Positions 2,187 through 48,873 of a stretch of DNA of 64,000 nt are shown here, in pieces. Position 1 is the first letter of the stretch; each line of letters starts with the position of its first letter. The notes below the pieces were generated by a model, which was not told the DNA's origin, searched no databases, and saw only the letters and a program-made list of their open reading frames with translations. The DNA lies in contig CATKHK010000069.1 in assembly GCA_949751835.1 (NCBI GenBank), positions 1-64,000 on the forward strand, given 5' to 3'. Position numbers and translations under genes: made by a program. The DNA is from Blepharisma japonicum. Its lineage: Eukaryota; Ciliophora; Heterotrichea; Heterotrichida; Blepharismidae.

Positions 2187-2311
2187 ATTATTGTATTATC
2201 TTTATCTTTAAATTAAATCAGAAATAGTCCTTGCTTTCGGCTCTAAATAATAAATTAATTAGTCTGATAGAACATTTAATTGCTTTATCTAGTTTCATAA
2301 TAAATAAAATT

Positions 2312-18895: not shown

Positions 18896-20905
18896 TTAAT
18901 TGACATCTTTATCTATGATATAATATTTATTATCATTTTCAAACCTCACCTTACTTGGAGGCACTGACAGAGTTTTGGAATTGGACTTTCTCAGGACAGA
19001 TTTTCTTACAGTCATTGACGATCTTTGCTCTAAAATCTCTGCAACCATATTTACATCCATGCAACAAACTCCTTCATCAACAACTTCAGCTATTTTTTCC
19101 CTCTCAAAGCCCAACTCTTCCACTTTGCCTATAAATTGCTCTTTCATGCTGCTCAATAGCATTGCAGAATCGTGCATTTTTTGTGGAGAAGGGATCATTT
19201 TTTGGCCAGCTGTATTGGTCCTGTATAAGTTTTTTTCGTCTTCTTCTTCATTAGGGAGGATCCCATTTCCTTGCATATAAGCGATCAGCTGTTTTGGTAC
19301 TTCATATAAAACTTCTTTTGCTAAATCGCTTGGATTAGACTTAAACTTAGAAAAGGGCACGAATTGCACTATGTCTCTTTTCATGTTTTTCTTCAGTCGC
19401 TTCGAATAAAGAGGGTGAATGTCCGCATCTAGCTGCTCCATCATGGAAAAGTCTTCGTTTCCCACGCCAACTATGATTATACTCAAAGGGAATTCTCCGG
19501 CTCTCACAATTTCGTCTATGGTATAGTCAATGTCATTGATCATTCCGTCAGTTAAAATCAACAGAATAAAATATTGCTGGTGCTTCTGAGATACTTGGAT
19601 TGTCGAGGCATATGTAATTGATGTTTGGATAAGTTCGTTAAATATAGTAGGACCATGGAGTCTTACTGTAGATAAGGCACTTTTATAGGCTTCTAAAACT
19701 TCTGAAATCCCTTTCACTTCTGGGTCAAAGATGTTTCCATTGAGGGCGAAACAATGGGAAATGATATCGAAAAGAGGGGGAAGCTTTGCTCCGAACCCGT
19801 ACACTGGGATTTTTTTATCAGAATCATAATATTGTAAAATTTCACCAACTGCAGATAGAGCTTGGATGTATTCGTTTGGATGGTCTATATCCAAATAATG
19901 TAAGGAATTATTAGCTGAAGGTAATCCGTTACTCTTGGTGAAATCAATCCCCACAATCAACGAAATTTCACAGCCTCCAAAAATATAATCTAAAAAGGTT
20001 ACTTTTTCTTCATATTGGAATCCAATTAAATTTAATGTAGCAATAGTTTTCTCTCCAAATGAAATAAAGTCTTGGAAGTTATTATTTTGCCTCAAATCTG
20101 CCAAGCAAAACTGGCAAGCTCCAATTAATTCATTTTTCTTCCTATCACTTTTATAAACCTCTAATTTTATTTTTCTCCTATCATCACCTCTGCATAGATT
20201 GTTGACTGATAAATCAATTCTATCTCATCTAAATGGATGAGAATCTGACGTTTCACTTTGATAGATAGGGACTTCATTATCATGAGAAGCTCTATAAAGT
20301 TTGAGAAATAATGGCCCCTTCAAGCTTCGACTGTCAATTTCTCATTGCATTTTCACGTGGTGATTTAAGTCACTCATTTCTTCCGAACTCACAGTAAATA
20401 GCCCTATTTTTCGTTTATTTTGAGTATTTTCCAGCTGTCTTGTGATGCTCCGAGTTGGCGAACAAACAATTTCATGGATATTGCACCGAATAGTCCCAAT
20501 GTAGCCTTGCTTGTCTAAATTAGGATTGTTTGGATCTTTCATGTCAAAGACATCAAATTTAAATTTCAATTGTTTTTCAAAACAATAGGAAACCTTGAAT
20601 GGAGTGATAAAGGACGGATTTTGTGAGCAATTTTGAATTTCGGTTCGTGATTTCTCTGTGCAAACTCCTGACTCGTCTTCAACGTAAAATACCACCATTG
20701 GGTCAGGAATTCTGAAGTGCTCATAGTGGTGAAGGTTACTACAGCTAATTGACAATTCTACTATAGAAAATAAGTCAACATCCTCTTCTCGAGCTCTCAG
20801 TGGAAGCTCTGCTATTTGATCTATTTCTTCGTCTTCAACTTGCTTTACTTTAATAATTCCTGAAACTATTTTAGGATCTTTGTCTTTACTGGCTCCACAG
20901 CCCAT
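18896..20905 (-). CDS. Copine (C2-C2-vWA), myristoylation signal, long C-terminal tail
   Basis: 669 aa, intronless, with TGA as Trp; for example one TGA joins the two C2 domains near residue 188. Copines are calcium-dependent phospholipid-binding proteins that bring their von Willebrand A domain and its partners to membranes. The N-terminus MGCGASKD fits N-myristoylation with a nearby Cys for palmitoylation, which is not typical of animal copines. C2A spans about residues 44-185 and C2B about 190-300. The copine/vWA domain is about 310-545, with a MIDAS-like DFTKSNG at 321-327. The last 124 or so residues are an extension; one part (ELGFEREKIAEVVDEG...MVAEIL) resembles a UBA-like three-helix fold. 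Total length exceeds the usual 530-590 aa. The start was chosen for the MGCG motif and the absence of coding sequence upstream. Confidence 0.93.
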
Positions 20906-21533
20906 TTGATTTTATATATTTATTATTCAAATATAGATAGATAATTCAATGAAGGAGCCTGTGATGAGTTTAATGGTGTAGTTTAATTAATATAATAAAT
21001 AATTTTCATTTATTTAGTTTATTCTGGCCTAAAAGTTTCATTTATACCTTGCTTTATTAAGATAAAATCTTTTGACTGAAATAATCTTTATATGATCATC
21101 TAAAAGCTGCATGGAATTAAAGAGCATATTATAAATGATTATGGCATTTGGTCTTCATTCTGAGCATATGCCAATTTTATGGAATATAGCATTAATCAGT
21201 TGATATCTAAAGTGCAAATTTTCTAAAAATGTTCTTTTACTTAGCTATATAAAATTCCATATTTTGTACAGAACCTTCAAACGCATTCAAAAAGAAACAA
21301 TAAATGTTCAAAATGCTTGGAAATTATAAAATTTCTAAATTTTCTGATATTAAATTAATCTCTATTTTTATAGTCTATTGCTCTTATTTTCAGTTAAATA
21401 AACTAATGCGTTGACTGAGCGAGAAGTTTATATGAGCTCAATGAAAAAAACTTAAGTAATTTATGCTTTGACATAATCATAGATAAAGCGATTGTTTCCT
21501 CATTTTTAATAATTCACCTATTCACTATTGTAT
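20906..21533. promoter_or_regulatory. Divergent promoter region between copine and aldo/keto reductase
   Basis: 628 bases of AT-rich sequence between two divergent starts, so both promoters must lie here. I see no coding similarity, RNA gene or obvious repeat, and I cannot name a specific motif. Confidence 0.5.
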
Positions 21534-22457
21534 ATGGAAACATTTCTATGAAATAATCAAAGAGCACCTCCACTAATATTTGGAACATTTAGCCTAGTAT
21601 CTACAAGCATCAAAAAAGCTTTAGAGGTTGGAATTGAGGCTGGGTATAGGCATATTGATACAGCTTCAATTTATGGAAACGAGGATGCTATTGGAGATGC
21701 AGTACAAGATTTTATTAATTCTGGAAAGGTATCGCGCGAAGAACTCTATATCATTGGAAAGCCTTGACTAACTCACCACAGGGACATAAGATCTGCTTGT
21801 ATAAAATCTTTATCAAGACTCAAGCTATCGTATTTTGATCAATATCTTCTTCACTGACCCCTATCTCTAAAGCCAGATCATAAAGATCCTCCGTCCTTTT
21901 CAGCATCGAAAGATCTATCTCAAATAGACTATTATCCCCTTTATAAAGTATGAGAACAGATGGAAAAACTTCAAGATGAAGGCTTAGTGAAAAGCATAGG
22001 AGTGTCTAATTTTACGATTGCTCTATTGCAAGACATGCTTGGATACTCAAGAATTAAACCATCGACTAATGAAATCGAAATATCGATATATAATCCACAT
22101 CATGAACTAGTTGATTTCTGTCATCTACACAAAATCGTCCCTTTGGGATATAGAGTTATATATAATCCTTTAAACGATCCCCTTTCATTATTCAAAAAAA
22201 GTGTCCTGGAAGACCAGCTGGCTATTGATTTAAGTAAAAAATATGACGTTGGTCCAGCACAAATACTTATTGCTTGGTGTTTAGCTAGAAACTGTGGAGT
22301 AATTGTAAAGTCTGTCACTCCAAAAAGAATCATTGAAAACTTTGAAGCTCAAAAGTTGATTTTGGAAAAAGAAGATATAGAAAAGCTGAACTCAGTAACC
22401 ACATATGGAGTATATTGTGATCCCTACGAAAGTTTTGGGATTCATCTGTTGAAATAA
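21534..22457 (+). CDS. Aldo/keto reductase family oxidoreductase
   Basis: 307 aa, the normal length for the family, once TGA is read as Trp. Aldo/keto reductases use NADPH to reduce aldehydes and ketones in a TIM barrel. The catalytic tetrad is complete: Asp42 and Tyr47 in GYRHIDTASIYGNE, Lys76 in YIIGKPW, His107 in YLLHWP. Further family marks are GVSNF in the middle and VKSVTPKRIIENF near the end, the NADPH-binding strand-helix. The ATG at 21534 leaves a short N-terminus before the first strand (PLIFGTFS), as expected, with no in-frame coding upstream. The gene converges on its right neighbour with 93 bases between stops. Substrate cannot be inferred. Confidence 0.93.
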
Positions 22458-24900: not shown

Positions 24901-24922
24901 TATTTATTAAAGTAATTTGAAA
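24901..24922. promoter_or_regulatory. 22-base divergent intergenic region
   Basis: Only 22 bases separate the start codons of the LRR gene (minus) and the Dopey gene (plus). The sequence is almost entirely A and T. Core promoter elements for at least one of the genes must therefore lie in this gap or inside coding sequence, unless the true start of one gene is further in. Confidence 0.6.
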
Positions 24923-27900
24923 ATGGAACAAGAATTCTACGATAGCTTGCAAAAGTGCTTTAACCAAACTAAGAACTCACGGTTTTGGCAATGAATTGAC
25001 TTAATTGCTTGGCTTCAAGGCGCTAAAAAAATTATAGAAGTGCATAAAGACCAAAGATTCCCGACAGCAATTTTGCACCAATACTCTAAGTTTCTATCGC
25101 AGTGCCTTATGCCAAATCAGTCTGAAGAAGTGCATAAGCTCACTTTAAGCATTTATAAGCACATTTTCCATTCAATTCCTCTGCATCAATATCATATATT
25201 ATCAGCTGGGTTTTTTCCTTTCTTCCAATTCGCATCAGCAAGCTGCAAAAACAAATTTTTGCAAATAATAGAAAGCATATTTTTACCAGAAATAAGCAAT
25301 TTGAAGCATATCTTTTTTGACCTAATCAGTTGCTTGCTATCAGGCTCTGTTAAATTACCAAAAGTTTTTCAAAGGGTCAGCCAGACTTTGGACATCCTAG
25401 CTGTTAAAATGAAACAAGATTTATATGGATCCATCTGACTTATTGTATTAAAATCATCGAAATCTCGGTCAGCCGCCCTACAATTCCTGCATTCCAGATT
25501 CGACATGGAATCCTGCGAAAGGGAGTTAATGATCAAAGCCTTGGCTGAGGCAATGGAAGATAAAGATAAAGAAGTAAAACGAAGTGTCTTAAATTTAATT
25601 CGCAGAATTTATCCGCTTGAAAGTGATAATTTTATATATCCAGAACTTAAAATTTTAGTAAAATCTGTGCTGAGACAAACGAAAATGAATGGTGATTTTA
25701 CTGTAAGAATAAGTGAATGGTTGTGCTCAAATGATTTTGAAGGAGAAATTGATGTTGAGAAAGCAGATTTTTTGGCTGCTTGCATCAGAGAAATTTTTAA
25801 AGAGAATTTAGAAATGATTAAGAAAAATGAAAATTCAATTAGTACTAAAAATTGCACAGTTGATTTATTGGAATATATTTATAGCACAAAGCCCATCAAA
25901 ATACCAGTTTTGGATAGGATATCTTTAGATATTATCACTTATTTCTATAGATTAAAAGCAGGAATACACGGAAAGGCATTAAATATCACCAGGAACCTGA
26001 ATCATATGGTATTTTGGGAATCATTTTTTTTATTATTTGAAAATAATATAAAGATGCATTCAAAAAAAGTTCTAAGGATTCTAAGATTTTCTATGAGTTA
26101 TATAGAGCATAATTCTGAAATCATAAATGTCATAATTGAAAAATTATTGGCAATTTGTATTGAGTCTCCACAATTTATAGAAATTTTAATTGATGATATT
26201 GAAATTTTGTCAAATAATATTGAATTTTCTAATAAATCAAACGCAAATTTATCATTTTACTTATTTAGCAGTATGCTAACTGGTCAAAAATACAATTTGC
26301 AAATGATTGAAAAAATTAAATCAATTTTAATCAGATTTTATGGGCTTGGAGCAGATTTTCATGAGCATCTTCCAGAATTGTATAACTTTGAGACAAAATC
26401 AATTGAAATTTTACTTTTAGTCTATAATACATTGATCGATTTAAAAGGTGAAATTCCTTCAATTCCTAAATTAATACAACTATGGACCCTTATTGAAACA
26501 AAGCATAAAGAAACAGCCTGCAATTTACTAATTGAATACAGCAAAATTGGTACGAAAGAATGGCTAGAGGCTCTTATTTCTCTTCTCCAAAAGCCCAATA
26601 CAGCAAAAGGTCTTAGAATATTCATTGAGTTTTGAAAAGTTTCTTCGGAAAATCATATGGAAGCTCTTTCAAATGCATTGGGAAGCGGAGAAGTTGTCTT
26701 CTTCATAAATGAATGCCTAAATAATGAAAGCCCCCTAATAAGACACTTAGCAAAAGAATGATTTTTTTCATCAGATAAAGTAGTTCCATTTACAATGGAC
26801 CCTATATTAGCTATAATTTTTAGTCACGCGTCAAGCCAATATTTAAGCTGCGACTCTCTTGATAAGTGTGAGTCTGAAAATATTGATAAATTCATCAAAT
26901 CTTTTAAAACACTTCATGGCATTTCAAAAATTGGTGGGAAAAATATATGAAGTGAAATTAATTCGCAAGATCTCAGCGAAAAAGCCTTATCTTTAGAGAG
27001 TTCCCCTTTGTTTCAAGGAATAACTTATGGAGATCTCATTGTATTAAGATGTTTTGAATTTTTAGAAAATATGAATTTGGAAGTTGAGGAGCTTAACTGA
27101 GCTATCTGCAATGCCCTTGAAGAGATTTCAGACTATATGAATCCTGAGCTTGCTTTTCGTGGACTGACTTGCTGTGCAAATGTATTGGTGAAGGCCTTAG
27201 GAGCTGACGCTAGTTCAGTCCAAATCTGCATGCTAATATTGATGAAAAAATTCTTAAAATTGACCAAAACAGCCCCAAACCCTTATGAATATCGGACTAT
27301 TTTGAATAGTGAACTTTTATGGGCCTGCCTTTGGAGAGGTCCTCTTACAAGTGATAAAACTTTGAGGACTTACTGGCTTAATTTCATTAAAAAAATTCCA
27401 GGATTGTCAGTTGTCTATTTAGATGGCTCCAATCTATATCAAACAATAGCTAATTTAGTTAGGCTATCTTGCCAACTTGCGGGAAAATATAGAGACGAAA
27501 ATGTGATTTTGCTTATAAAGAAAGTGCTTCATAGCTCTCTTAATATGAAAAATCTCAATGTTCATGAAAAAATTCCGGCTTTAGTTACAATGGTTTTTAA
27601 AGATTTAGAAAGTTATTTAAAGCTGTGCATAAAACTTTATGAAAACTCAAAGAATAATCACGAATTAAAATATCATACTCAAATAACGAAAATTTTTGAC
27701 CCAATAATGGAAAAGTATCCATTTGAATTAACGAAAGGTCTCATTGCAATTTGAATTAAATTTTGTTTGAATGCACAAGAATCTAAGCATTTTTCTTATA
27801 TCATCCGCCTTATCCAGTCATTTAGAATGGACATAGATTTGGTTTTTGATAATATTTTTGCTTATTTTCAAAAAGAATACTTGCTGATTCCAGATTCAGC

Positions 27901-29347
27901 AAGCACAGATGGTCGTGAACTGTGCGTAGCTCATTTCTTGAATTCTCTATTTCTGAATTTTGACTCTCTGAAGATCTCAATTAAGACTCAACAAAATTTC
28001 TGAATAAAATGTCTAAAAGTATTAAAATTACTAAGTTTTTCTCCATGAGAAGAAATGGGCATCTTCATTGTCAACATTTTGCATATAATAAAATCAAGAG
28101 TACATACTATGAATTTATATACAAACCCTCGTCTTGTAAAAGAGCTTCATTGCATTGTGCAAAAGGTGTTTAGCCAAGCTTTGACTATTTGCAATGCCTG
28201 AACAAGAGATGCGTATCATATGCCATACCCAGGTTTTGAAGAAGACCAAGAGAAGAAATTATTTAAAATTTTTATGAAAACATTAATGGACAAAGGCTAT
28301 GAAACAGTCTGCCTTGCCTATCCTGATGAGCTATCTGCAAAAATAAGGGCTGATTGTTTAAGCAATGTATGCTTACGAATGATTGCTCTGATGCCTGAAG
28401 CAACTCTGTCAGTTGACTTAGCTTCGGAGTTAATTTTAACATTTTTGAATAAAGAAGGCGCAAATCTCGGAAAAATCATTGGAAAAGAAGTGATCAATTT
28501 AATTATCAATCCTAGATTTTTTGAAATCTGTCACCGCTTTCCAAGTAGTTTAGATACGTGATCAAAAATTATAAACTTAACATCTTTACTTGTATACCCA
28601 AGTCATGAAAAAACCCTAGAAAATATAACGTTTAAGATAGCGAGCGATACTTGGAGTTTATTCGCAAATCCTGCAAGAAAAATTGGCTTTGTAATAAAAA
28701 ATATTGCTTTTTTAATTTATAGCGGAGCTAAAGATGACTACGTTCTTGCTATGGATTCAATCATTAGATATTTAACAACTGCGATAGAAGACGAAAAACA
28801 CTATGAAGTTAGCTTTTTACTTATTAGGGTTGTCTTTTCTAGATTTTCAAATGATAATTTAATGCAGTTCTGGATAAAAATTTATCCTAGACTTTATATT
28901 GCTTTATTTTCTATCTTCAAACGTTCAAGTCCCATCAATATTTTAGCAGCCCTAAAGCTATTAGAGTGCTTAGTAGTGTCTCGAATATTCAGCTTTCAAA
29001 CTATTCAATGAGCATTTATTCTTGATGTTAATAAAATAGGTAGGGATAGCCAAGTGGTCAAGTTTATCCCTCTGATAGCTGAAAATGTATTATTCTTAAA
29101 AGAGATAAAAGCAAGCTCAGAAAAAATTGATAGGGAGAACACTGGAAATGTGATGAAGAGAAAATTAAAATTATGCCAAGCCAAAATTGATGATTTAGAA
29201 AATGGCCTAGAAGATGTGAAAGAATATGCAAAAGTATTTATTGAAGACTGTATGATATATAATTGTTCTCTTTGGGAAACTGATATACAATCCTTGGACG
29301 ATGGAATTGCATTTGATCTATTAAATATGCGGTTTGGAAACAATTAA
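24923..29347 (+). CDS. DOP1: Dopey family protein (DOP1 homologue)
   Basis: 1474 aa, intronless, with about nine TGA tryptophans and a TAA stop. Dopey proteins are large helical-repeat scaffolds that work with Mon2 and the Neo1-type lipid flippase in endosome/Golgi traffic. The N-terminal 190 residues match the Dopey N-terminal domain in order: WQWIDLIAWLQGAKKII, LSQCLMPNQSEEVHKLTLS, IYKHIF, SAGFFPFFQFAS, IFLPEI, and SIWLIVLKSSKSRSAALQFL. The middle is alpha-helical repeat with weak conservation. The end has a probable coiled coil (KRKLKLCQAKIDDLENGLED, near 29160) and a conserved-looking terminus. Length is somewhat below yeast Dop1 (about 1700 aa). It converges on the giant-family copy 3 with 809 bases between stops. 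Confidence 0.85.
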
Positions 29348-30156: not shown

Positions 30157-32367
30157 TTACAACTTTTTGATTGGTTGTTTAGATTTGAAAAACCTTTGTT
30201 TCACAACTCCTGCTTTTTCAAGTTTGTTACGAATTACTTCATATAGAGTTCTTACAAAAATAGCGACTGAAGAGAATGACTGAACTCCAATAGCTGCTAT
30301 AATAATTGCAACAATTGTATATTCCACAGCAGAAACAATATTCTGCTCTAAATTAAATAAATAGGCTGATGTCGCACCCATCACTAAGCAAATTAGTATT
30401 TCAGTCAATAAATTGCATACTTGCAAAATTTGGTCTCCGAAAGGCCAGAAAAATCATAAATACATAACAGCCATTAAGGAAAGAACTATATTGATGGTCA
30501 CTTCGCTTTGTGGATATTCTCTTAAATATACCAAATTTATTATATATATAAGTCTTCTAATAAAAAAAACAAAATAATATTGTGTGGAAAGGAATCCTTT
30601 GTCACTTCGGAATTCATAAAAAAAGGAACCAAATAAGGATGCAAAAGATTTTTCTCGTGATTGAATTCTATTTTTATTTTTATAAGAAAATAAAAAATAT
30701 ACAGGTGGGGTAGCTACTAAAAATACATAAAGAATTGCACAAATAATAGCGTTGCTAAGCTGCACCGCATTTTTAAATTCAAAAGTAAGGAGCCCTATAC
30801 TAGCAGCTGCTCCTAATTCAAGATAGCATTGGATCCATCATCTTAAATAAAAGGAAAAATGATAATCTTTTACAGTTTTCATAAATTTTTTACCAATTCA
30901 CCTATGTGAGCAACGAGAAAAGTAGAGGATTATTGGTAAAACTGAGATAGAAACCAATATGAGCGTGAAATTATTTCCTGTGGTTATTAGTATCAGGTCA
31001 GAGTCATATCCAAATTCCTGAGCTTCAGAATAAGGAGTATTTCCTTCGTTTTTGTCTATGAAATATGGAAAAATGTTTGGAAATAAGTTAAAATTATTTA
31101 AAGCATTCAAAAATGCCCTCATGTTGGTAGATAAAGGAATTCCTGATATAGTTAAATAGCTCAAATATTCTAGACAGTTTATTATACTTCAGAAAGAACT
31201 TGGATTTGGGTTTAAAAATGATAAAGCAGCAGCTATAGCAACAGCAGTTTGGACTCCAGCTGTGGTTTGTGACGTGATTGCTTCTAATGTAGGTGAGGAT
31301 GGGTTAGGATTATAAGAATTCAAAAATGCTGAAACTTCTGATGAAGCCAAGATTCCATTTGAAACTGATCTCACATTTTTCAAATCCAAAAACTGAAGAT
31401 TAACCAAAGTGCCCTTAGAAATTTCTTTTTTAATTCTTAAAGAAATATAATAACAAGTACTATTTACTGACTCAATTTTGAAGGAAACCTTTCCTTGTTT
31501 TTCAATGCTTATCGTAAAATCTGATACTGCTAAACTGTTTACTAGGCTATCTGAAAAACTTAGATAAAGGGAATTATCAAACATAACAGTAAGTCTTGCT
31601 GAAAAAGAGACTAATGAGCAATTTTTTATTCCATCGTATCCTAAGTTACAAGAGCAGAGGTCATTTGCTAAATTTGCATGATTTACACAAGCTGTGCATT
31701 TCGTAGAAGATAGACAGGCTACACATAAATTTGGGCATGTATAAAAATAGCCATCAAACCCCTTGTATCCACCAGACGGAATTGTAATACAAGTATTGTT
31801 AGTAGAGGGATCTGGTACATAATTTTCATCGCATATACAAGAATCTGGGCTATTCGCATTTTCTTTGCAATTTAAGCATCCAGAAGGAGAATAATCATTG
31901 CAGACATCACATAGTAAATGACTGCAGAGCGAGCAAGAAGATCTCCAGTCTCTGCAGGTTTTCTTGCATTTGATATTACAATTATGGCAGACATTGTAGC
32001 CAGGCCCACTTCAAAATTCATTTATTCTGCAGTTAGGGATACAGGTTTTACTTATAGGGCAAACTCTACAAGATTCAGTGCAAGAGGTTGTCGATAGGCT
32101 TGATAATGATACTACAGTATTAAACATTTGTATAGTATAAATAAAACCTTGATAGAAATTATAAACTGACGATGTGTCTATTTGAGCTCCTATTATCATT
32201 GTAGTATGAGGACCGATATCGAGAAAAGCTCCGTATCCTGTGAAACTTGATGCATAAGATACTGTATTCACATAGCAAGACAATTTATTATAGCCACTTG
32301 GAGCGGCTTCTAATGTAAATACTATATGGCTCCATTCATAATTTTTAAGTGATGCATCACATATATA

Positions 32368-32482
32368 ATGAGCTGAAAATTTTTGGTTTTAACTCTCATT
32401 ATTTTTTTTGATATAAAATTAAATATTTTACTCTCCAAGAATTTGATATAAAAGATGGAATACATCTCCTGGGTACTATATA
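32368..32482. other. 115-bp TA-bounded insertion, candidate retained IES
   Basis: Copies 4, 5 and 6 read straight through module 7 here (coding ...FYICDAS...). Copy 3 has 115 extra bases flanked by a direct repeat TATATA (32362-32367 and 32477-32482). Exact removal with one TATATA retained restores the paralogue sequence and moves the frame from one phase to the other as observed (115 is 1 mod 3). Ciliate internal eliminated sequences are typically TA-bounded. A GT...AG intron could be drawn inside it (about 104 bases), but splicing that would leave 11 bases and the wrong frame. Base composition is AT-rich and no coding is seen within. Confidence 0.75.
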
Positions 32483-34057
32483 AAATACTGACCATAATGC
32501 TAAATTGCATGAAAAAATAGGCTTGCTATCCATTAATAAAATTGAATAAAGTGTTGAGTAACCATTAGAAATATCATGCTTTGATAATATAGTAGCATAA
32601 GAGTTCTCGATATTTAGCCATATAGAAATTGTAAAGGTAGGGGCAATAACAAGTACTGGAGATACATAATTTGAATACTCAGGCAGTCTTAAAACTGAAG
32701 ATTGCCCATTAAATCAAAATCCTCTTAAATAAGCTGGAATTGGATCATCAGCTTCATACTCTGGGTAAAACTGCTTTGTTGATCCTGTTACGACAGGAAT
32801 TGAGCTTGCCTTATCATAAACAACTCCATTTAAAGTGTTTAAATCTAAGTCAAACATTTTTTCTTGAATTCTCACGCATACTCCTGGATGTTTTTCATAT
32901 CCTAATGGGCAGCTCTTTAAACAAATTCCGGAAGCCATATAATAGCCATCAACGCACGTCAAGCAATCTAAATAGCTCGAAGATGTGCAGGTTTTGCAAG
33001 AAATATCACATAGTTCGCAATCTTCATTGTCAGAGTTTCAATAATATCCATTATCACATTTACAGCTTAAGCCTACTAAGCTTGCATGCGCTCTACAAGT
33101 AATGCATATACTTGTATAATCATTACATATTTCGCATATGATATCTTGGCAAAGATTACAATTTTTGTCTTTTCTTAGACAGCCTATAGTTGAGCAACCA
33201 GACGTGCATGCATCGCAGTTATAGCTATTTCAGTATTTGTCTATAAGACAATTTTCTAGGCAAATATTGGAATTATCAATCGGACATAATGAGCATCCGT
33301 TACAAGTGTATGATACTAAGGAATTGGTTGAAGCTGTATTATAAATTTTAAGATCCCATAAAAATCCATTAAAAAATGATGTTAAAGTTGTAGAATCAAA
33401 GTAACTTGCTCCTATTGTTATTAAGAATGAGCTTTGTAAATCATTTAATCAGCTTGGACGTAAGTCACTTGAAATATCAGTATATGTATTTATTCTCAAT
33501 TTAATAATTTGCTGAGTAGTTGCACTGATATCAGATACAGCTGAAATAAAGTTTCATTGAGAAAATGTAGCCTGCAATGAAGCAAGAGTGCTTTTATAGG
33601 TTTTTGTGGTAGAATCATGAAGTGTAAGAGTAAGAGATGGAAATAGATTTACCAATTCAAAATTGATATAATTTTTAAATCCTCCATTACTGGCTTGCTT
33701 ACAAAAAATAATCCCTGAATTAAATACAGGACTTATTCAAGCTGATATCACAAATCTTGGAGAAAATGTAAGTAATGGCGTTGCAGTACCCGAATAAGGA
33801 GGTAATCGAATATAAGATGATCCAGTAAAATAATAGCCTCTATAAATGGCTGCAATTGGATCAGTTGCATCATAAGTAGGATAAAATTTATTATCTTTGC
33901 CTGTTAGAACTGGGATACTTGAAGCTAAATCTACCACAATGTCTTTTATTTGGTGTGGCATTAGATTGAACACCAAAAAATCAGTGTAAGCAGGGTCAGC
34001 AGTACAGTTTTTGCCATTTATAGCATATCCGGTAGGACAAAAAGTCATGCATAAAGA

Positions 34058-34060
34058 TTA
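34058..34060 (-). other. In-frame TAA in giant-family copy 3
   Basis: The coding strand has TAA where copies 1, 4, 5 and 6 have a Gln codon (CAA or CAG) in the linker before module 6. A single C-to-T change explains it. TAA is used as the real stop by most genes in the window, so this should end translation. Confidence 0.85.
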
Positions 34061-37000
34061 AATTAGATAATAGCCTGTAATGCATGTAAGGCAGCCAGTG
34101 TATTCGACAGTAGAGCAAGTATCACAAATTGTATTACAGAGCTCACAGGACTGAGAGCTCGAGACTCATACAGCATTTGTATTACACATGCAATGGTCTA
34201 CAGGCTTATAAGCATTTGCTATGCAGCTTATGCATTCTCCTGTGAAGGTTGTACATGAGTAGCATTCTTTATCTCTGCAAAGCCTACAAGTTAAATCACT
34301 GACACATCCTTCATTGCAGCCTAGCAAACAAGTATCGCAGCTATCAGGATATTCATTTACAGCACAAATACTTAAGCATTGATTATTTCCAGGACAAGTT
34401 GAGCATCCTGCACCACAAGAAGTAGAATAATCATCGGCCTGATGGTTATAAGAGTTATATATATTTACTCCTGCTAAAAACCCATATAATCCTGAAGTCC
34501 CAAAAGTTTCATCATTTCCAATGTATAGAATTCCTGCATTAGTATCTTTAAAATAAATAAGAGACGATGTAGTAAATGAATTAACGCTTGCTGTATTTAA
34601 ATAGAGAGTCAGCTTAGTTTTGCCATTAGTTTCGATTTCTCCTGTAAAACTTAAAAAACTTCAATTATTAATAATGTATGTAGAGGCGGTTAAAGTAGCA
34701 GACGATGAATCAACAAATTTCAGTGAAAGCAGGGGGTATCCTGAGGAGTCCACAGAAATTTTGATAATGTCACTCGAAGTATATTTTGTCATTAAAATTC
34801 CAGCAGTCAGTGATTTAGTTCACATAGTTATTGCGAAAGAGGGAGATATTATGACCGTAGATGATAAATAATTGCTTTTGAAAAAGTAGTAGCCTCTTTT
34901 ATAGGAAGGGATTGGATCTTTTGTGTCTAAATTCCAATCAGGGTAAGAATTCGTATTTAAGGCTCCTACATTAAAACCAGAAACTGTATCAAGACGGATT
35001 TGATCTGTTAAGTCTAGGCCAATTCCTATATATGTAGAATAATCACAAGTTTTTCCAGCAGAATTTGGACTATAGCCAGATGGGCATTCAGTTAAGCACT
35101 GCCCAGTTGGTGCAAAAAATAAATACCCGGAAAAGCATGCTATACATTTTTGATAAGTTGAGTCTGTGCATTGAGAACACCCAGTATAGCATGGCTGACA
35201 TGAAAACCCATCATTTGAAGTCCGGTAGCCAGGGTCGCACACGCATGGAGTTCCATTAGCATTATTAACGCATTGGATGCATTTTCCTGAACCAAAACCT
35301 GAACAAATAGCGCATAGTAGATCATCGCAGATATTGCAAGTATTTGCCCTTACGCATCCTTTACTACAGGAATTACATGCTGAGCAAGAGGCAGAATTTT
35401 TATATGTCGAAATTAAACATTCCCATAGGCAAGAAGCCCCAGATCCAGATCCACAAAATGCAAAGCCATTAATAATAGCTGGGAATCCAGTAATCTGAAT
35501 GTTTCACAGCTGAAAGGAATAAATAAACCCTACAAATCCAGAAGAACTGCTTTTTCCTAATAGCAAATTAGTTGATGTTTGATCTCTAAATATTTTCCCT
35601 GAGATAGTGACTGAACCTGCAGCAGCTGCATTAATATAAAGAGAAAGAACAGAAGCATTTGAGGTATAATAAATACTAATAGACACATAAGTTCAACCAG
35701 TAAATGAAGAACTTGGGGATAAAGTTTGTGCAGATGTCGTTTGTGTGGTGCCTTCCATTATAGCTGTTATAGCGCCTGTTGATGCTACTGTTAACCTTGT
35801 TTGTTTTTGCAATAAATCTCCATTAGTAACCGCGTAAACTCAAGTTCCCATCGCAAAGCTATGCGAAAGATATACAGAAGCTGAAGATAATAAATACATG
35901 TTTCCGTCAAAATAAAGGCCTCTTTTATATGCAGGAACAGGATCAATAGTTTCAGGGCTTATAAATGGCTGAAAAGAAGTTGGGTCTGTTCCCGTTGTAA
36001 AAATCCCATAAGATCCTTGGAAATCAATATCAAATAATTGGTCAATAACTGCAGTTGAAACCAAAGAGCAAGAAGTCCCGTAACCATAAGGACAATCATT
36101 TAAGCATATACTGTCTACTATTTGTTTCCCCGCTATACAAGTAGTGCACTCAAAATAGGTAGTTTGCTTGCATGCAGAACAAAGCGCATCACAAAAGTCA
36201 CAAGTGGCAGTACTAGAAACTCAAAAAGTATTCGCCTTGCATCTGCAACCTGCTGATCCATCACCTTTTGCATTTGCAATACAGCTTGAACAAGCTCCAG
36301 CAAAATTAGAACATTCTAGGCACTGTTTTGTCTTGCACAATCTGCAAGCATCTGTATATCTGCATCCCTTAGGACAAGAACCACAATTTGTGCATGCTGA
36401 GCCATCATAAAATTGCGAAATTGGGCAAGTATTAGGACAATTGTGATCACTAGGACAGCTTGTGCATGGTAAAATGCAGCCTGATGTTGTATAATCATTG
36501 TATTGTAAATTGTCTATATTATATATATTTAAATCATATAAAAAACCAATAAAACCACTGCTTATGGTGGATTTTGTGCCAATGTAGAGAGTGTTTGCGT
36601 TGCGATCCTGAAAATAAATAATGTTTGAGGATGAGCCTACTTCTTTGGTCAAAGAATTAAAATATGAGTTTATTTTAGTAGTGTAACTTGCGTCTATTTT
36701 TCCTGTGAACGCAATGAATTTTCAGCTACTAGTTAATGAATTTTCTGATAGAGTTACAGAAAAAGATGAAGAATCTTTTAAAATAAGGGAAAGCTTGGGG
36801 TATCCAGAGCCACTCAAAATTTCTAAGCAAAAAATTTCATTCCCAGATACTGTCTTAGCCACAACTGTTCCTGCTCCAATAGGGTAAATCCAAATAGAAA
36901 CTGTGAAGTATGGTCCTATCACTGTGCTCGACGACATATAAGTTGTGCCTGTAAAATAGTATCCTCTTAGATAGGCTGGATATGGATCATTAACATCATA

Positions 37001-39262
37001 AGTAGGGTAATAAGTTCCCATAGAATTTCCTATTTTGGTTCCTGAAATCATATGAAGTATTATTTTATCATAAAGAGATAAGCTTAATCCAGAATTTGAA
37101 GAAAAAATACAACTTCTTGTTCCTGAATTTTCTGTATATCCTGAAGGACAGTTGGATATGCATAACATGCTATTGTAAAAGAAATAGCTAGAGCTGCAGG
37201 AAGTGCATAAGTAATAAGTAGATCCAGTACAGGAATTGCATCCAGTTGTGCAAGCAGAGCACAGTGCTTGGTTTATAGGCTGATAAAATCCAGTATTGCA
37301 AGTGCATGGAGTCCCAGAAGCATTAGAAATGCATGCTGTGCATGCTCCTGACCCGAATGAAGAACATTTAGAGCATAAAAAATCGTCACAAATATAGCAA
37401 GAAGTTCCTCTTGTACAGCCCATTGAACATGAGCCTGAGGATGAGCAAGGTTGGCATGCGCTACCATCATAATAATTAGAATAATCGCATGGTCATAAAG
37501 TTGTTCCTGCACTTACATATAGGCTATAAGGGACTGAAAAATCTGTAATAGTGATTCCTCATAACTGAAAATAACTAATAAACCCATTAAAATTCGGAGA
37601 GCCTATATATAAAGTTCCCCCATCTGCTAATCTAAATACATAATTTGTAGCAGTAGCTGATGATCCAGAAATATTATTAATATATGGCGTTAATGTAGTA
37701 GCTTTATTAACAAACCCCACAGAATAAGATATGTAACTTCATGTATTTAAAGTTATAGACTTTGATGCAGAATAGCTTGCATATGTCCCATCTCATTTTT
37801 CTAAATCAAAATTAATAGTCCCGCTAGAGTTTATAGAAAGTCTATTGCTGCTGTGACTAATTATAGTTCCGAAAATAGCGTAAACCCACAACCCCATGCT
37901 CCATGTGTGGGATAGATTTATGGATCCGGCTAAAAATTGGTTAGAATTAAAATAAAGGCCTCTGTTTTTTGCTGGAAAAGGATCTGAAGTTTCAGGAGAG
38001 TTTCAATAGTTATAGCTTGCTGAACTTGTCCCTGTAATTCATGCAGATCCATAGTTTCCAGCAAAAGTTCCTGTAAAATCAGCTGTTATTACAGCTGAAG
38101 AAACTGCGGCACAATTTCCATAACCGTATGGACACCCATATAAACAAACTCCTCCAATTAAAAAATACCCATTAGTGCAGGCTGTATTAGACCAAGTTTG
38201 TGTACAAGTTGCTCCTAAATGGTCGCAACACCCTGGAGGTATTCCTGTATAGCATGCAGTGCACATTGAAAATGAGTACCCATCGCAAGCACTGCAATCT
38301 GTAAGATAACAATAGCTACAGTCTCCCCCCCTAACGCATCAAGGCCAAGTTGGGCAGCCTGTTCTGCATATATGGCAAGCGGATCCGTCCCAATAATAAT
38401 TATCAGCACAATCAATAGTAGTAGTTTGAAAATAAACTGCACTAGTTTCAGCTCATACCGATAGTCAGTAAATAAACCCTCTAAATGAGTTCCCTCCTGA
38501 TGTATTTCCAAAAGTTCATGTATAAACTCCATTTGGAAAACGAATTTCATTTGCTAAGAAATGAGTTGCACCTTGTGTGTTACCATTGTAATAAAATACT
38601 ATGGAGCATGTGTTGCAATTTCATTGATATAAATACATTGAGACTGTGTGCCATGATGAAGAATAATTGACAGCAGAGGCTCCAGAAACTGATTGTTGAG
38701 TTCCATTTGAGTTATAAATCAATACAGAGAAATAATAGACGCCGCTAGGATCAGCTCATATCCTAATGTATGAAGTTGAGCTTATCTTCACATTTAAAAT
38801 TTCTCCACTTCCCAAAGTCTTTATTACCAAATTTAAAATAAAATAAGGGCCAGGAATATAGCTTTGATTCCCAATCATACCTGAACTGGTAGCAAAATAA
38901 AAGCCACGGTCTAGTGTCGGAAGTGGGGAATTATGTGTGAGAGATTTATATTGGATTCCTCCAGGGTTCTCAAATTTTTTGGTGGAATCTGAGGAATCTG
39001 CCACATAAGTCAGCGTTAAATCTTGAACACTAGCTAATTTTAATATAAATAAAATTGCAGCTGCTCCAGTAGGTTTGGTGCAATAATTACTGCATGAAGG
39101 ACAATTTAGCTGGTAAGGAGTATAAAGAGTTGGACATATATCAGCACATACATAAGAATCAACCATATATTTTGGCATATTGCAAGCTGATCCTGTGCTA
39201 TCATAAGGGCAGCTTGAAAGAATCAACACAAGTTTGGCGAGAAAAATAAGGATCTCAATCAT

Positions 39263-39846
39263 TTTAATTGATAATTATTATGGTGACTTGAAATAAAAAC
39301 CTTTCAATATTTATAGAGCTAAATTGCAGCTGATTATGACACTCTTAAATAGAGTTCATTTCAGTATGTCATAGACTAAAAAATATGTGTCATTCCAAGA
39401 GTGTAGGTTGATTGATTGATACGTGTCACCATTTTAACCTACATTCATAATTTCTTGACATTCCATAAACAAGAGAAATAAGATTATTATCAGATTAATT
39501 AAAATTAATTGACCTCATCTAATTTGCTTATTAAAGATCTATAGTTAATAGAAATTCTAATTAGTTGAAGAAATGCTAGTATTTTCTTATTTTATGTTTT
39601 TAATTTTGCTTCTTCAAATTTTACATTAAAGGAGCAAATAATAAAATTAAAAAATAATAAAAGTAAAATAAAGAAAGAATCATGAAGTGTTGATATTTTT
39701 AAGTTTTTATTAAATCACATTAAATTTCTCATTTTTTGACAAGTTTTAGGATTGAATATTTAGTAGTTAAATTGATATTCGAGATTCTATATGGCTTTGG
39801 GAAAAATTTATAAATTTTACTTTTATATCTATAATTTAGTATTTTA
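39263..39846. promoter_or_regulatory. Spacer between copies 3 and 4, with nested inverted repeats
   Basis: 584 bases holding the promoter of copy 3 and the 3' end of copy 4. About 75-185 bases upstream of the copy 3 start lies a cluster of short perfect inverted repeats: ACACTCTT at 39339-39346 with AAGAGTGT at 39397-39404, and TGTAGGTT at 39402-39409 with AACCTACA at 39436-39443. There is also TATGAC at 39335-39340 with GTCATA at 39368-39373. The first two stems overlap and so could be alternatives. The rest is AT-rich without visible features. Confidence 0.45.
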
Positions 39847-42800
39847 TTATTTCTTAACTTTCTTAAGACGAGGCTTAAGCGCCCGAATGTTTCTTTTCAC
39901 AATCCCCGCTTTAGTAAGCTTATGATGAATGATTTCATATAGAGTTCTAACAAAAATAGCTATTGATGCAAATGACTGAATTCCCATAACTGTAATCACA
40001 ATTGCTACAATAGCACTCTCAAAATCTGAAATAATTTCCTGATCTAAATTAAATAAATAAACTGTAGTCGCACTCATTATTAAAAAAATTGATATTTCAG
40101 TCAATAAATTGCATATTTGCATAATAGTGTCTTCAAATGGCCAAAAGAAAATTAAATGCATAATAGTCATTGCTGAAAGAACGATATTTATAGTTACCTC
40201 TGTTTGTGGATAATCTCTTAAAAAGACCAAGTTTATTATATAGATAAATCTTCTCACAAAAAATACAAAATAATATTGTGTTGCTAGCAGACCTCGGTCA
40301 GTTCGAAATTCATAAAAAAAGGAGCTAAACAAGGCAGTAAATGTTTTTTCTCGAGATTGGATCCTATTTTTATTTTTATAAGAAAACCAAAAATATGCTG
40401 GTAGTGTCACAACTAATAGAACGTAAATGATTATACAGATAATGACATTGGTGATTTGCGTCATGTTGTTGAATCCAAATGTAACTAGCCCAATACTTGC
40501 AGCAGCTCCTATCTCAAGGTATGATTGGATCCAAAATCTTAAATAAAAAGAAAATTGATAAGCTCTCACAGTTTTCATAAATTTCTTACCAATTCATCTA
40601 TATGAGCATCGAGAAAAGAAAAAAATAATTGGAAAAGCTGAAAAAGAAGCCAATAACAGAGTAAAATCGTTTCCTGTATTAATAAGAATTAAATCAGAGT
40701 CATATCCAAAGTCCTTAGCTTGAGAATATGGAGTATTCCCTTCATTTTTATCCATGATATATGAAAAAAAGTTTGGTATTATGCTAAAAGAGTTCAAATT
40801 GTTCAGAAATGAACTCATTTTGCTTGAAAAAGGAATTCCTGATAAGGTTAAATAGCTAAGAATCTGCAAAGTATTTATCATACTCCAAAGAGAACTTGGA
40901 CTTGGGTTTACAAGTGACAAAGCAACTGCCCCTGAAATCGCAGCTTGTGCACCAGCTGATGCTTGAGACGCAACTGATGCAACTGCAGATGAATATGGTG
41001 CAGGGTCATATGAATTCAGAGCTGCAGAAATTTCTGATGAATTTAACACTCCATTTGATACAGATCTCACTTCTGCTAAATCTAGAAACTTAAGAACTGC
41101 CAAGGAGCCTTTAGAAATTTCCTCTGTAACTGATAAAGAAAGATAATAGCACGTGCTATTTACCTGTTCCATTTTATAGGATACTTTTCCTTGCTTTTCA
41201 ATTGCTATGGTAAAATCATTTATAGAGAGTAAATTAGCAAGACTATCTGAAAAAGTAAGGTAAAGAGAATTATCAGATAAAACGGTGAGTCATGCTGAAA
41301 AAGGGACTAGAGAACAAGTTTTCGTTCCATTATAGCCTAGATGGCAATAGCATAGATTATTATTTAAGGTTGCATTTCCTACACAAGCAGTGCAGCTAGT
41401 AAGAGATTCACAATAAGTGCAGTAATTTGGGCATGAATAAAATTTGCCATCTGGACCTCTAAATCCTCCAGCTTCAGTAGGGATGCATGTACTATTAGTG
41501 GAAGTGTCAAGAACATAATTTAGATCACATATGCATGAATCTGGGTTAATCGCATTTTTTTTACAAGTTGAGCATCCAGAAACAGAATAGTCAGTGCAGA
41601 CATCACATAATAAATTACTACAAAGCGAGCAAGTAGGTTTCCAGTCTCTGCAGGTTTTCTTGCATTTTGTATTACATTGATAGCATGTATTATAAGCTGG
41701 ACCACTTCAATATTGGTTTATTTTGCAGTTAGGGATGCAGATCTGGCTTATAGGACAAGCACTGCAATTTTCAGTACAAGAGGTAGTCGATAAGCTTGAT
41801 ATTGATTTGACAATATTAAACATCTGTATGGTATAAATAAAGCCTTGGTAAAAATTATAAATAGCTGAAGAACTTACTTGAGCTCCGATAGTTATTGTAG
41901 TATGAGGACCAGAATCGAGAAAAGCTCCATATCCTGTTAAGCTTGGCGAATAAGATATTCCATTCACATAGCAAGACAATTTATTATATCCACTCGGTGT
42001 GGTTTCTAATGTAAATGCTACGTGGCTTCATTCATAATATTTAAGTGCTGCATCGCATATATAAAAAATTGTCAATAAACCTAAGGAACTTGAAAAAATA
42101 GGTTTACTATCCATTAAGAAAATTGAATAAAGTGTCGAAAAACTATCAGAAATATTCTGCTTTGATAATATAGAAGAATAAGAGTTTTCAATGTTTAGCC
42201 ATATAGAAATGGTAAAGGTAGGTGCAACAGCAAGTCTTGGCGATGTATAATTTGAATACTCAGGCAGTCTCAAAATTGAAGATTGCCCATTAAATCAAAA
42301 CCCTCTTAAATAAGCTGGAATCGGGTCATCAGCTTCATATTCTGGATAAAACTGCTTTGTTGATCCTGTAACTACTGGAATTGAGCTTGCCTTATCATAA
42401 ATAACTCCATTTAAAGTGTTTAAATCTAAGTCAAACATTTTTTCTTGAACCCTTATGCAATCGCCTAATTTTTTTTCATATCCTAATGGACAGCTTGTCC
42501 CACATATACCTGAAGCCATATAGTAGCCATCAGCGCACGTCAAGCAATCTAAATAATTTGGAGATGTACAGGTTTTACAAGAAATATCACATAACTCGCA
42601 ATCTTCATTACCTGAATTTCAATAATATCCTGGATCACATTGACAGCTTGAACCTACTAAACTTGCATGTGTTCTACAGGCTATGCAGACACTTGTATAA
42701 TCATCGCATCTTTCACATATGATATCCTGACAAAGGTTGCAATTTTTATCTCTTCTTACACAGCCAACAGTTGAACATCCAGCAAGGCATGAATCACAGC

Positions 42801-45800
42801 TATAGCCATTTCAGTATTTATCTATAAGACAGTTCTCTAAACAAGTATTGGAATTATCAATTGGACATAATGAGCAGCCATTGCAAGTGATTGATATTAA
42901 TGAATTAGTTGTAATTGTATTATAAATTTTAAGATCCCATAAAAACCCATTAAAAAATGACGTTAAGGTTGTGGAATCAAGGTAGCTTACCCCTATAGTT
43001 ATAGTAAACGAGCTTTGTAAATCATTTAATCAGCTTGAGCATCGGTCGCTTGAGGTATCTGTATACGTATTTGTAGTAAATTTAATAATTTGCTGAGGAG
43101 TTGCACTGATTTCAGATACAGCTGAAACAAAATTCCATTGAGAAAGAGTAACTTCTAGCGAGGCAAGAGCACTTGTATAAGTTATTGTAGAAGAATCCAG
43201 CAATGTAAGAGTAAGTGATGGATATTTATTTACTAATTCAAGACTTATAAATTTTTCAAATCCTCCATTACTGGTTTGTTTACAAAAAACAACACCTGTA
43301 TCAGAAACTGGATTTATCCAGGCTGATATAGTAAATTTTGGTGAAAAAGTAAGTAATGGCGAAGCTGTGCTTGCATAAGGAGGTAACTGCATATAAGCTG
43401 AGCCAGAAAAATAATAGCCTCTATAAATAGCTGCAATAGGATCGGTGTTATCATACGTTGGGTAAAATTTATTATCTTTTCCTGTGATCACTGGAGTGCT
43501 TGAAGCTAAATCTATCACAATGTCTTTTATTTGATGCGGCATCAAGTTAAACACAAAAAAGCCAGTATAAGCAGGATCAGTGTCACATATATCACCATTT
43601 ATAACATATCCAGTAGGACAAAAGGTCATGCATAACGATTGAATCAAATAGTAACCTGCTGTACATGCAAGACAGCCAGTATACTCGACAGTAGAGCAAG
43701 TATCACAAATTGTACTACAGAGCTCACAGGACTGAGAGCTCGAGACTCATACAGCATTTGTATTACACATGCAATGGTCTACAGGCTTGTAAGCATTTGT
43801 AATGCAGCTTGTGCATTCTCCTGAAAAGGTAGTACATGAGTAGCATTCTTTATCTCTGCAAAGTCTACAAGTCAAATCACTGACACACCCTTCATTACAG
43901 CCTGTCAAGCATGAAGTACAGCTATCGGGATATTTATCAAAATCGCATTCACTTAAACATTGATTATTTAAAGGGCACACAGAGCAACCAGTATTGCATG
44001 AAGCTGAGTAGTCATAAGATTGATAAGTATAAGTATTATAAATATATAATCTTGCTAAAAAACCATATAGCCCTGAAGTCCCAAAGGTTTCGTCATTTCC
44101 TATATAAAGAGTTCCTGCAGCAGTGTCTTTAAAATAAATTAAAAGTGTAGTAGTCATATCCTGAGAAGCCACTGTGTTGATGTAGAGGATAAGTTTAGTT
44201 AAGCCATCAGTTTGAACCTGCCCTGTGAAAGCTAAAAAGTTTCAACTGTTTATAATACTTGCTGAAGTAGTTAAAGTAGCATGTGAGGAATCAGAAAAAG
44301 CTATTGAAAGTGAAGGATATCCTGAGGAATCTACAGTAATTTTTAAAATGTCATTAGTTGTGTATTTAGTCATTAGAATTCCTGCAGATAGTGGTTTTAT
44401 CCATAGAGAAATAGTAAATGAAGGTGCTATCATAACTGTTGAAGATAAATAATTGCTTTGAGAGAAGTAGTAGCCTCTCTTATAAGAAGGTATGGGATCC
44501 TTTGCATCTAAATTCCAATCAGGATAAGTATTTGTACTCACTGAGCCTACATTAAAACCAGAAACTGTGTTAAGACGCACTTGGTCAGTCAAGTCTAGAC
44601 CAATCCCTAAATCTGATGACCAATCACAGGCTTTTCCTGTAGGGTTTGAATTATACCCTGCTGGGCATTCAACTAAGCACTGGCCAGTTGGTGTAAATAA
44701 ATAGTACCCTGGAAAGCATGCTGTGCATTTTTGATAAGTTAAACCTGTGCATTGAGAGCACCCAGTATAGCATGGCTGACATGAAAAGCCATCATTTGAA
44801 GTTCAATAGCCAGGATCACACACGCATGAGCCGGGAGCTCCACTAGCATTATTAACACATTGGGTACATTTTCCTGAGCCAAAACCACTGCAAACTGAAC
44901 ATAATAAATCATCACATATATTGCATGTAGAAGCCCTGACACATCCTTTGCTGCAAGAATTACAGGCTGAGCAAGAGCCGCTGTCTAGATAAGTAGAAAT
45001 GCTGCATTCCCATAGACAAGAAGCTCCAGACCCACAAAAAGTAAAACTGCTCATCACAGCTGTAAAATCTATAATTTGTGTGTTTCACAGCTGAAAATAA
45101 TAAATAAACCCTACAAATCCAGAAGCACTGCTTTTTCCTAATAGCAAATTAGTTGATGTTTGATCTCTAAATATTTTCCCTGAGATAGTGACTGAACCTG
45201 CAGCAGCTGCATTAATATAAAGAGAAAGCACAGAAGCATTTGAGGTATAATAAATACTAATAGACACATAAGTTCAACCAGTAAATGAAGAACTTGGGGA
45301 TAAAGTTTGTGTGAATGTCGCTTGAGTAGTATCTTCCATTATAGCTGTTATAGCGCCTGTTGAAGTTACTATTAACTTTGTTTGCTTTTGCAATAAATCT
45401 CCATTAGTAGCCACATAAATTCAAGCTCCCATCGCAAAGCTGTGCGAAAGATATACAGAAGCTGAAGATAATAAATACATGTTTCCGTCAAAATAAAGGC
45501 CTCTTTTATATGCAGGGAGAGGATCAATAGTTTCAGGGCTTATAAATGGCTGATAAGAAGTTGGGTCTGTTCCTGTTGTAAAAATTCCATAAGATCCTTG
45601 GAAATCAGTGTCAAATAATTGATCAATCACTGCAGTTGAGACTGGAGAGCAAGAAGCTGCATAGCCATATGGGCAATCATTTAAACAAATAATGTCCACT
45701 ATTTGTTTCCCTCCAATGCAAGTAGTGCACTCAAAATAAGTGGTTTGCTTACATGCAGAACAAAGTGCATCACAAAAGTCACAACTGGCTGTACTAGAAT

Positions 45801-48800
45801 GCCAAAATGTATTTGCCTTGCATTGGCATCCGCCGGATCCATCAGCTTCTGCATTTGTAATACAGCTTGAGCAAGACCCAGAAAAAAATGTGCACTCATA
45901 GCACTGTTTTGTCTTACACAATCCGCAAGTATCCGTATATCTGCAACCTTTTGTGCAAGATCCCTTGCAAATAGCATATGTCGACCCATCATAATATTGA
46001 GTAATTGGACCAGCGTCGGGGCAGTTGTGATCAAGTGGACAGCTAGAGCATGAAGAAATGCAACTTGATGTCGTATAATCACTGTATTGCAAGTTTTCGA
46101 CATTAAAAACGTTTAAATCATATAAAAATCCAACAAAGCCACTAGTTGTAGTAGCTTTTGTTCCAATATAAAGATAGTTTGCACTGCGATCCTGAAAATA
46201 AATAACATTTGATGATGATCCTGTTTCCTTGACAAGAGAATTGAAATATGAATTCACTGTAGTTATATGGGTTGCATCAATTTTTCCTGTAAAAGCAATA
46301 TAATTTCAACTGCCGTTCATAGCATTTTCTGATGAAGTTACTGAAAATGCTGAAGAGTCTTTTAAAATAACAGAGAGTTTAGGGTATCCAGATCCACTCA
46401 AAATTTCCAAGCAAAAAATTTCACTCCCAGACACTGTTTTAGCTAGAACTGTTCCTGCTACAACAGGATATACCCAAATAGAAACTGTAAAATATGGCCC
46501 AAGCACTGTATATGAGGACATGTAAGTTGTACCTGTGAAATAGTATCCTCTTAGATAGGCTGGATAAGGATCATTAGAATCATAAGTAGGATAATAATTT
46601 GACATAGAATTTCCTATTTTGACTCCTGAAATTGAATGAAGCATTATTTTATCGTAAAGTGATAAACTTAGTCCAGTCGTTGAGGAAAAATCACAATTTT
46701 TTGTACTTGAATTTTCTGTATATCCTGAAGGACAGCTTAAAAGACATACCATGGAATTGTATAAAAAATAGGTGGAGCTGCAAGAAGTGCAAGAATAATA
46801 AAAAGAATCAGTACAATGAGTGCAGCCACTATAACAAGGAGAGCATAAAGCTTGATTTATAGGCTGGTAATACCCAGAATTGCAAGTACAAGGAGATCCA
46901 GCAGCATTGGTAACGCATGAAGTGCAAGCTCCTGAGTAAAACGATGAGCATTGGGCGCATAAAAAATCGTCACAAATATAGCAGGATGTTCCTCGGGTAC
47001 AGCCCATTGTGCATGTGCCTATGCAGGATTGACAATTAGTTCCATCAGAATATTGAGAGTAATCGCAAGGCCATAAAGTTGATACTGTCCCTCCAGTTAA
47101 TGTACTTATACTAGAATAGGCAGAAAAGTCACTAATCGCTACTTGCCATAGCATAAAATGAGCAATAAATCCTTTGAAGTTTGTCGTGCCTTTTCCTATG
47201 TATAAAGTTCCTCCAGAAGGCAATCTGAATACAAAATTTGTGATTGAAGTATATGTCCCAGCAGCATTATTAAGGTAAGGAGTAACTGTAGTAATTTTGT
47301 TTGAAAATCCAACTGTATAGGAAATATAACTCCATACGCTTGAAGTTATAGTTTGAGTAGCAGACCAACTTCCTGAACTAGCGTCTCATTTTTCCAAGGA
47401 AAATATAATTGATCCACTAGAATCAATACTAAGCTTATTAGAGCTGTGGCTGACTAATGTCCCAGAAATAGGATTAATCCACATACTAATGCTCCAAGTA
47501 TTAGATAAGTTAATAGACCCTGCCAAATACTGGTTAGAATTAAAATAAAGACCTCTATTTTTAGCTGGAAATGGGTCAGAAGATTCAGCAGAAGACCAAT
47601 AATTATAACTACTAGAGCTTGTACCTGTGATTAAAGCCGTTCCATAACTTCCAGCAAATGTCCCTGTAAAATCAGCAGATAAAACAGCAGAAGATACAGC
47701 GGCGCAACTCCCAAACCCATAAGGGCACGCATATAAGCAAACCCCTCCAACCAGAACTTTATCACTACTGCATGCAGAATTTGACCATGTTTGCGTACAA
47801 GTCGTTCCATAAATATCACAGCATCCTGGAGTAATACCTGTAAAGCATGCTGAACACAGTGATAAAGAATATCCAGAGCATGCACTACAGTCAATTGTAT
47901 TGCAAGTACTACAATCAGTTCCTCTTCTGCACCAAGGTCAGGTAGGGCAGCTAGAATCGCAGTCTCCACATGCTGTGCCACTTCAATATTGATTATAAAC
48001 GCAATTAATAGTAGGAGTAGCAGTTCCATAAACTCTAGTAGTATCTGATCTAGCTTGCAGTCAATAAATAAATCCTCTAAATGAGTTTCCTCCAGATACA
48101 TTACCAATTTTTCATGAATAAGTCATCACTGTAAATCTTCCTTCTGCACCATTTACTGCTGTTGTTCCAACAGCTAAGCCATTAATAAAAAAAGACACAT
48201 TTATAGTATCGCAGTCCGATTGGTTAATAACAACTGATGCAGAATGCCACGATGACGCATAAGTAGACGTTGCCGTCCCAGCAATAAATTTAGCATTACC
48301 ACTAGAATCATAAATATTTGCAGAATACTTATATACACTGGTGGAATCTGCATAAACCCGCAAATATTGCGTAGAACCTGATATAACGTTTAATATTTCT
48401 CCACTATTAAGAGGCATTATCCACATATTTAGCGTAAAATACAAAGCTGGGGTGTAACTTTGGCTTCCAATTATACCTGAAGTTGTAGCAAAATAAAAGC
48501 CACGATCGAGGGTTGGGAGAGGAGAAGTGCGGGTGGCAGAATTATAAGAAACTGAACTGGGATTTATAAATTGGTCAGCAGACCCAGTTGAGCTTGCTAT
48601 ATAAGTGCCTGATACATCTTGAACTGTTGAAAAGGGCAATGTAAATAAAATTGCACTATCCCCACTAGGAGTATCGCACCAAAAAAGTACTGATACGCCG
48701 TCGTGATCAGGTGAAAAAAGTGAAGGACACCCAGCCAAGCATATTTTACTGTCAGCATAGTATTTGGTTCCACTTTTGCATGAGCAACCTGCTAGCCCTC

Positions 48801-48873
48801 AATCTATGCTGTTATATGGGCAGCAGGTGAAAGTCAACCAAATTTTGGTGATAAAAAGGAAACTTAAAAGCAT
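39847..48873 (-). CDS. Giant LamG/Cys-rich multispan membrane protein, intact 7-module copy (copy 4)
   Basis: 3008 aa, intronless, TGA as Trp, TAA stop. The ATG at 48873 starts a signal peptide (MLLSFLFITKIWLTFT) followed by CCPYNSIDWG. The next in-frame Met, 45 codons downstream, would lose the leader. Seven modules in canonical order have signatures near 48490, 47555, 46550, 45500, 44470, 43420 and 42300. Seven furin-like Cys linkers alternate with them. The stalk lies near 41280-40990, then the Ala/Ser-rich helix (SQASAGAQAAISGAVAL), about eight membrane spans (40900-39950) and a Lys-rich cytoplasmic tail. Conserved loops between spans are YKNKNRIQSREKTF and YEFRTDRG. The ectodomain has many Asn-X-Ser/Thr sites. 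Closest relative is copy 5, of exactly the same length, but one stretch of module 4 is nearer to copy 3. The function is not recognised; a surface receptor or adhesin is plausible. Confidence 0.9.

Follow-up and report, generated by a model that had tools for sequence, protein, structure and literature searches.

The window, a stretch of 64 kb, is the first part of contig C69 (256,672 bp) in a Blepharisma japonicum assembly of 45.2 Mb and 224 contigs. It starts in telomere repeats, CCCTAACA, at C69:2-79, and its GC content is about 34%. When TGA is read as tryptophan the minus strand holds seven open reading frames of at least 900 nt, totalling 33,066 nt, and open frames of about 9 kb emerge; with the standard code there are four such ORFs, which sum to 4,326 nt. 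For Blepharisma, PMC9942806 gives the same telomere repeat, the use of UGA for tryptophan, and introns predominantly of 15-16 bp. Because the telomeric start, the genetic code and the GC content agree with the features given in PMC9942806 and PMC9942856, contig C69 is read as Blepharisma-type macronuclear DNA.

Most of the contig is covered by an array of related genes. The 3,017-residue protein of copy 4 contains seven Laminin_G_3 stretches (E 1.5e-50), and on the strength of this domain and of a cysteine-rich sequence the family product is probably a surface protein. Within the window the array is broken up between 18896 and 29347 by ordinary genes, namely a copine (18896-20911, minus strand), an aldo/keto reductase (21513-22457, plus strand) and a Dopey/DOP1-like gene (24911-29347, plus strand); family copies lie on the plus strand before this block and on the minus strand after it. 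Copy 3, a gene of about 9 kb of the Laminin_G_3 type on the minus strand, falls into three open parts. The upstream part (34058-39274) and the downstream part (30157-32388) are reading frames with TGA as tryptophan that are also recovered by tblastn, while the middle part (32399-34057) enters an inserted segment and meets a stop inside it. An in-frame nonsense codon at 34058-34060 is an independent lesion and lies upstream of the insert in gene orientation.

When copy 3 is aligned with copies 4-6 (MAFFT), a single clean gap of 115 bp appears, bordered at either end by TATATA (32362-32367 and 32477-32482). The interior, 32368-32476, together with one TATATA accounts for the 115 bp, of which 23.5% is GC. 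Counting the base that follows the first TATATA, the full repeat common to both ends is TATATAA; an end repeat of at least 7 bp arose in random insertions of contig DNA at a frequency of 0.00088 (200,000 trials). The corresponding empty sites lie at 42058-42063 in copy 4 (gene at 39847-48900, minus strand), 52116-52121 in copy 5 (49905-58994, minus strand) and 62414-62419 in copy 6. The first two read TATATAA and the third TATATG, so that two of the three copies in the window, 4 and 5 but not 6, keep the full TATATA.

The same junction is found by protein homology. The copy 4 protein splits copy 3 in tblastn into 39265-32477 (query 9-2281) and 32367-30160 (query 2280-3015). At an E value of 1e-4, over C69 plus 43 kb of contigs C31 and C55, 27 matches from other copies run across the junction (25 on C69 and 2 on C55, the query copy counted), and only the two halves of copy 3 fail to cross it. 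Removal of the 115 bp joins the copy 3 frame without a stop and with no residue gained or lost relative to copies 4-6. Among 3,545 stop-free, frame-restoring cuts of at least 20 bp this cut scores highest against four paralogs, with eight equivalent positions inside the repeat. An exact TATATA-bounded insertion in coding sequence, its absence from copies 4-6, and the recovery of frame and homology on its removal had all been proposed in the first-pass annotation, and all three are borne out. A search of the 45.2-Mb assembly at E values up to 10, which passes over simple repeats and highly frequent words, returned the insert's match to itself and no second copy, and a dispersed repeat or duplication was rejected as its source for that reason. 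Comparison of the ends by eye showed no terminal inverted repeat next to the direct repeat.

A scan of the family copies on C69 for breaks, made with 20 family proteins and directed at frame-breaking or stop-bearing insertions, returned three insertions of at least 20 bp supported by several templates. One is the 115-bp insert; the others, of 139 bp (C69:175413-175551) and 172 bp (C69:152677-152848), are frame-breaking, lie outside the window and sit in other family copies. The earlier statement that the 115-bp insertion was the only one of its kind thus stands for the family copies of the window and fails for the contig. The 172-bp insert is flanked by an 8-bp direct repeat, TTTAAGCG, that contains TTAA (end repeats of at least 8 bp arise in random insertions at 0.0003). 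The boundary of the 139-bp insert is less sure, because 12 cuts tie for the best score, with CTAC, ATA or GG among their repeats; it can be cut at TA-containing repeats, and a repeat of this sort arises by chance at 0.034. In the assembly both regions matched paralogs only, and no further copy of the two inserts turned up. Nor does the assembly hold a second contig with an excised form of any of the three regions; the matches were again paralogs, the nearest pieces being 86%, 89% and 80% identical. The presence of the 139-bp and 172-bp inserts at other sites in other copies suggests that the family is subject to recurrent retention at a low level.

Several further breaks on C69 were kept outside the insertion count: one at C69:243060, which has 207 bp extra and is supported by one template only; a small frameshift at C69:182980 (-1 to -4) that splits one family copy; and breaks near C69:244860 (-71 to -74, two templates) and 246000 (+1). 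In alignments on C69 with at least 45% identity and 300 bits, no stop-bearing insertion of at least 7 residues was found inside a gene, and the only two recovered lie past the point where copy 3 starts. The 43 kb examined on contigs C31 and C55 includes roughly 25 kb that matches the family, in which there was no break.

The three host genes differ in their state of preservation. Branch dN/dS was estimated by a simple parsimony count at codons where all other copies agree. On the copy 3 branch there are 203 synonymous and 151 nonsynonymous changes, a ratio of 0.187 (a second set gives 0.190); the ratio is 0.071 for copy 4 (100 synonymous and 29 nonsynonymous) and 0.104 for copy 6. The nonsense codon of copy 3 is the only one within a gene in the C69 family alignments at the above thresholds. 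Since stops make up 3.55% of point changes, a single stop allows at most about 0.015 substitutions per site of fully neutral drift (95%, Poisson), and the decay of copy 3 is therefore recent or partial. The first-pass description of a decaying gene is accordingly upheld in a mild form, by one nonsense codon and a modestly raised dN/dS. Branch dN/dS in the copy that carries the 172-bp insert is 0.169-0.180, against 0.123-0.124 in its relative. For the copy with the 139-bp insert the value is 0.072-0.106, lower than in its relative (0.122-0.163), and neither an in-frame stop nor any other break was found across its roughly 9 kb; the 139-bp insert is either very young or cut from some molecules.

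These features can be set beside what is known of internal eliminated sequences (IESs) in the genus. PMC9942856 gives 39,799 IESs on 41 Mb for Blepharisma stoltei, about 70% of them intragenic and taken as precisely excised. Repeats containing TA are found at 30,212 of them, the commonest being TA, TAT/ATA and TATA; their lengths span about 65 bp to 7,251 bp, and the short ones are largely nonrepetitive. The 115-bp insert resembles the short TA-bounded IESs described there in its length, its alternating T/A repeat, its intragenic position, its exactness and its AT-richness, and also in that no second copy was found. The 172-bp insert is close in length to a B. stoltei IES peak at 174 bp. There are differences as well. 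The 7-bp repeat is longer than the common TA, TAT and TATA, the GC content falls below the B. stoltei IES mean of 33.3%, and a length of 115 bp falls at the margin of the periodic IES range, off its 110-bp peak (PMC9942856); the lower GC and the missing inverted repeat do not help an IES reading. Unlike the IESs of that account, moreover, the segment sits in a macronuclear assembly and is known here only as assembled sequence.

The inserts have the length, the repeat, the single-copy nature and the position of the IES class, and the 115-bp segment is therefore read as an unexcised element of this class. A TA-containing direct repeat, exact restoration of the coding sequence, and a length between about 65 bp and 7 kb are all found in it. 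We consider it probable that the segment is a Blepharisma IES, or an IES-class element, that was not removed from the assembled macronuclear locus. The first-pass annotation had offered a retained IES, and this survives in its core, given the ciliate setting and the IES-like anatomy (TA repeat, length, want of a second copy, empty sites in paralogs), and is shorn of its claims about uniqueness and introns. From the sequence we infer that the segment would be subject to excision. Its origin would be an insertion into a TATATA target in germline DNA; from most genes such segments would be cut at the TA repeat during macronuclear development, by a probable domesticated PiggyBac excisase, and at copy 3 excision would fail in all or most macronuclear copies. 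This failure may be recent, and the existence of more than 25 paralogs would make it tolerable.

Imperfect excision of this kind has precedents. Excision is regarded as a continuum in PMC9942856, where partly retained IESs are said to be hidden by assemblies, and in Paramecium somatic IESs with retention scores above 0.1 occur in excess in weakly expressed genes, as reported in PMC7606892. Like the copy 3 insert, the incompletely excised IESs described in that source are IES-sized, lie in macronuclear coding DNA and often bring early stops; in Paramecium, however, retention is a fraction scored from reads, whereas the copy 3 case is a consensus sequence. Retained or partly retained IESs have thus already been described in both genera, and the 115-bp insert, so read, is a further example.

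A never-excised insertion would look identical, since transposition also leaves an exact insertion with a direct repeat, and we hold it unlikely, although worth weighing, that the segment came from a short mobile element or filler sequence whose entry duplicated the target site, and that it is permanent in both nuclei and was never an IES. GTACCC adjoins the repeat on one side, as at the start of the BstTc1 terminal repeat of B. stoltei, which follows a TATA duplication (PMC9942856). The likeness to the BstTc1 sequence given in that source stops after six bases, and the other end of the insert shows no match. A piece from within the BstTc1 terminal repeat found no match in the assembly with up to two mismatches, and pieces of the B. 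stoltei Bogo terminal repeats found none either, as might also hold for a clean macronuclear B. stoltei assembly; a derivative of BstTc1 or Bogo was rejected. The terminal inverted repeats by which a MITE or DNA transposon is recognised were not seen when the ends were compared by eye. Against a mobile element stands also the want of a further copy of any of the three inserts in the 45.2-Mb macronuclear assembly, and TA-bounded intragenic germline segments are, according to PMC9942856, precisely excised in Blepharisma.

A different possibility is that the segment is a true IES excised in most macronuclear copies, the assembly having captured a germline or minority form. The 139-bp insert lies in a copy that looks as if it were still functional, and assemblies are reported to conceal partly retained IESs (PMC9942856), both of which would accord with such a capture. 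Residual retention scores in macronucleus-enriched DNA are nevertheless given as 0.02 or less in the same source, and a consensus should therefore rarely pick the retained form. A germline array at the published density of 39,799 IESs on 41 Mb would be expected to carry about 200 or more, against the three found. With this deficit, and with a contig that starts in a telomere, a germline assembly is disfavoured; three inserts in the array are as expected for macronuclear DNA with rare retention. We regard capture of a germline or minority form as very unlikely.

That the segment is an intron gained by insertion is hardly credible. The first-pass annotation held that the frame is not recovered when the insert is read as an intron, which is strictly wrong: a GT-AG segment of 91 nt on the minus strand (32463-32373), ending in TTTTCAG, does so, and it is the only such option found within 15 nt of the insert. 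The intron reading is nonetheless poor. Splicing of the 91 nt would leave 8 residues that are absent from copies 4-6, and introns in Blepharisma are given as predominantly 15-16 nt (PMC9942806), a length at which the 115-bp insert offered no frame-restoring GT-AG intron. In 1,000 shuffles of each insert, at least one frame-restoring GT-AG intron was allowed in 69% of trials for 115 bp, 40% for 139 bp and 66% for 172 bp, and an intron of 15-16 nt in 1.1-1.5%, while the actual 139-bp and 172-bp inserts allow no frame-restoring GT-AG intron. With its length, its extra residues and its chance-level occurrence in shuffles, the 91-nt candidate is judged a chance feature and a spliceosomal intron was rejected.

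To return to the retained IES, retention in the array might also be partial and vary between macronuclei, the IESs then acting as on/off switches for individual Laminin_G_3-type paralogs. We think this quite unlikely. The well-preserved copy with the 139-bp insert is as expected if the insert is cut out in some cells, and a very young retention would match equally. Two points merit follow-up: inserts recur within a single array whose start is close to a telomere, and one of them occupies a copy that is otherwise well preserved. IESs that stay in coding DNA inform on the reliability of DNA elimination and on whether elimination can silence genes. With three inserts in one tandem array and more than 25 relatives with empty sites, the family offers a compact place in which the retention of IESs, its inheritance and its cost can be measured.
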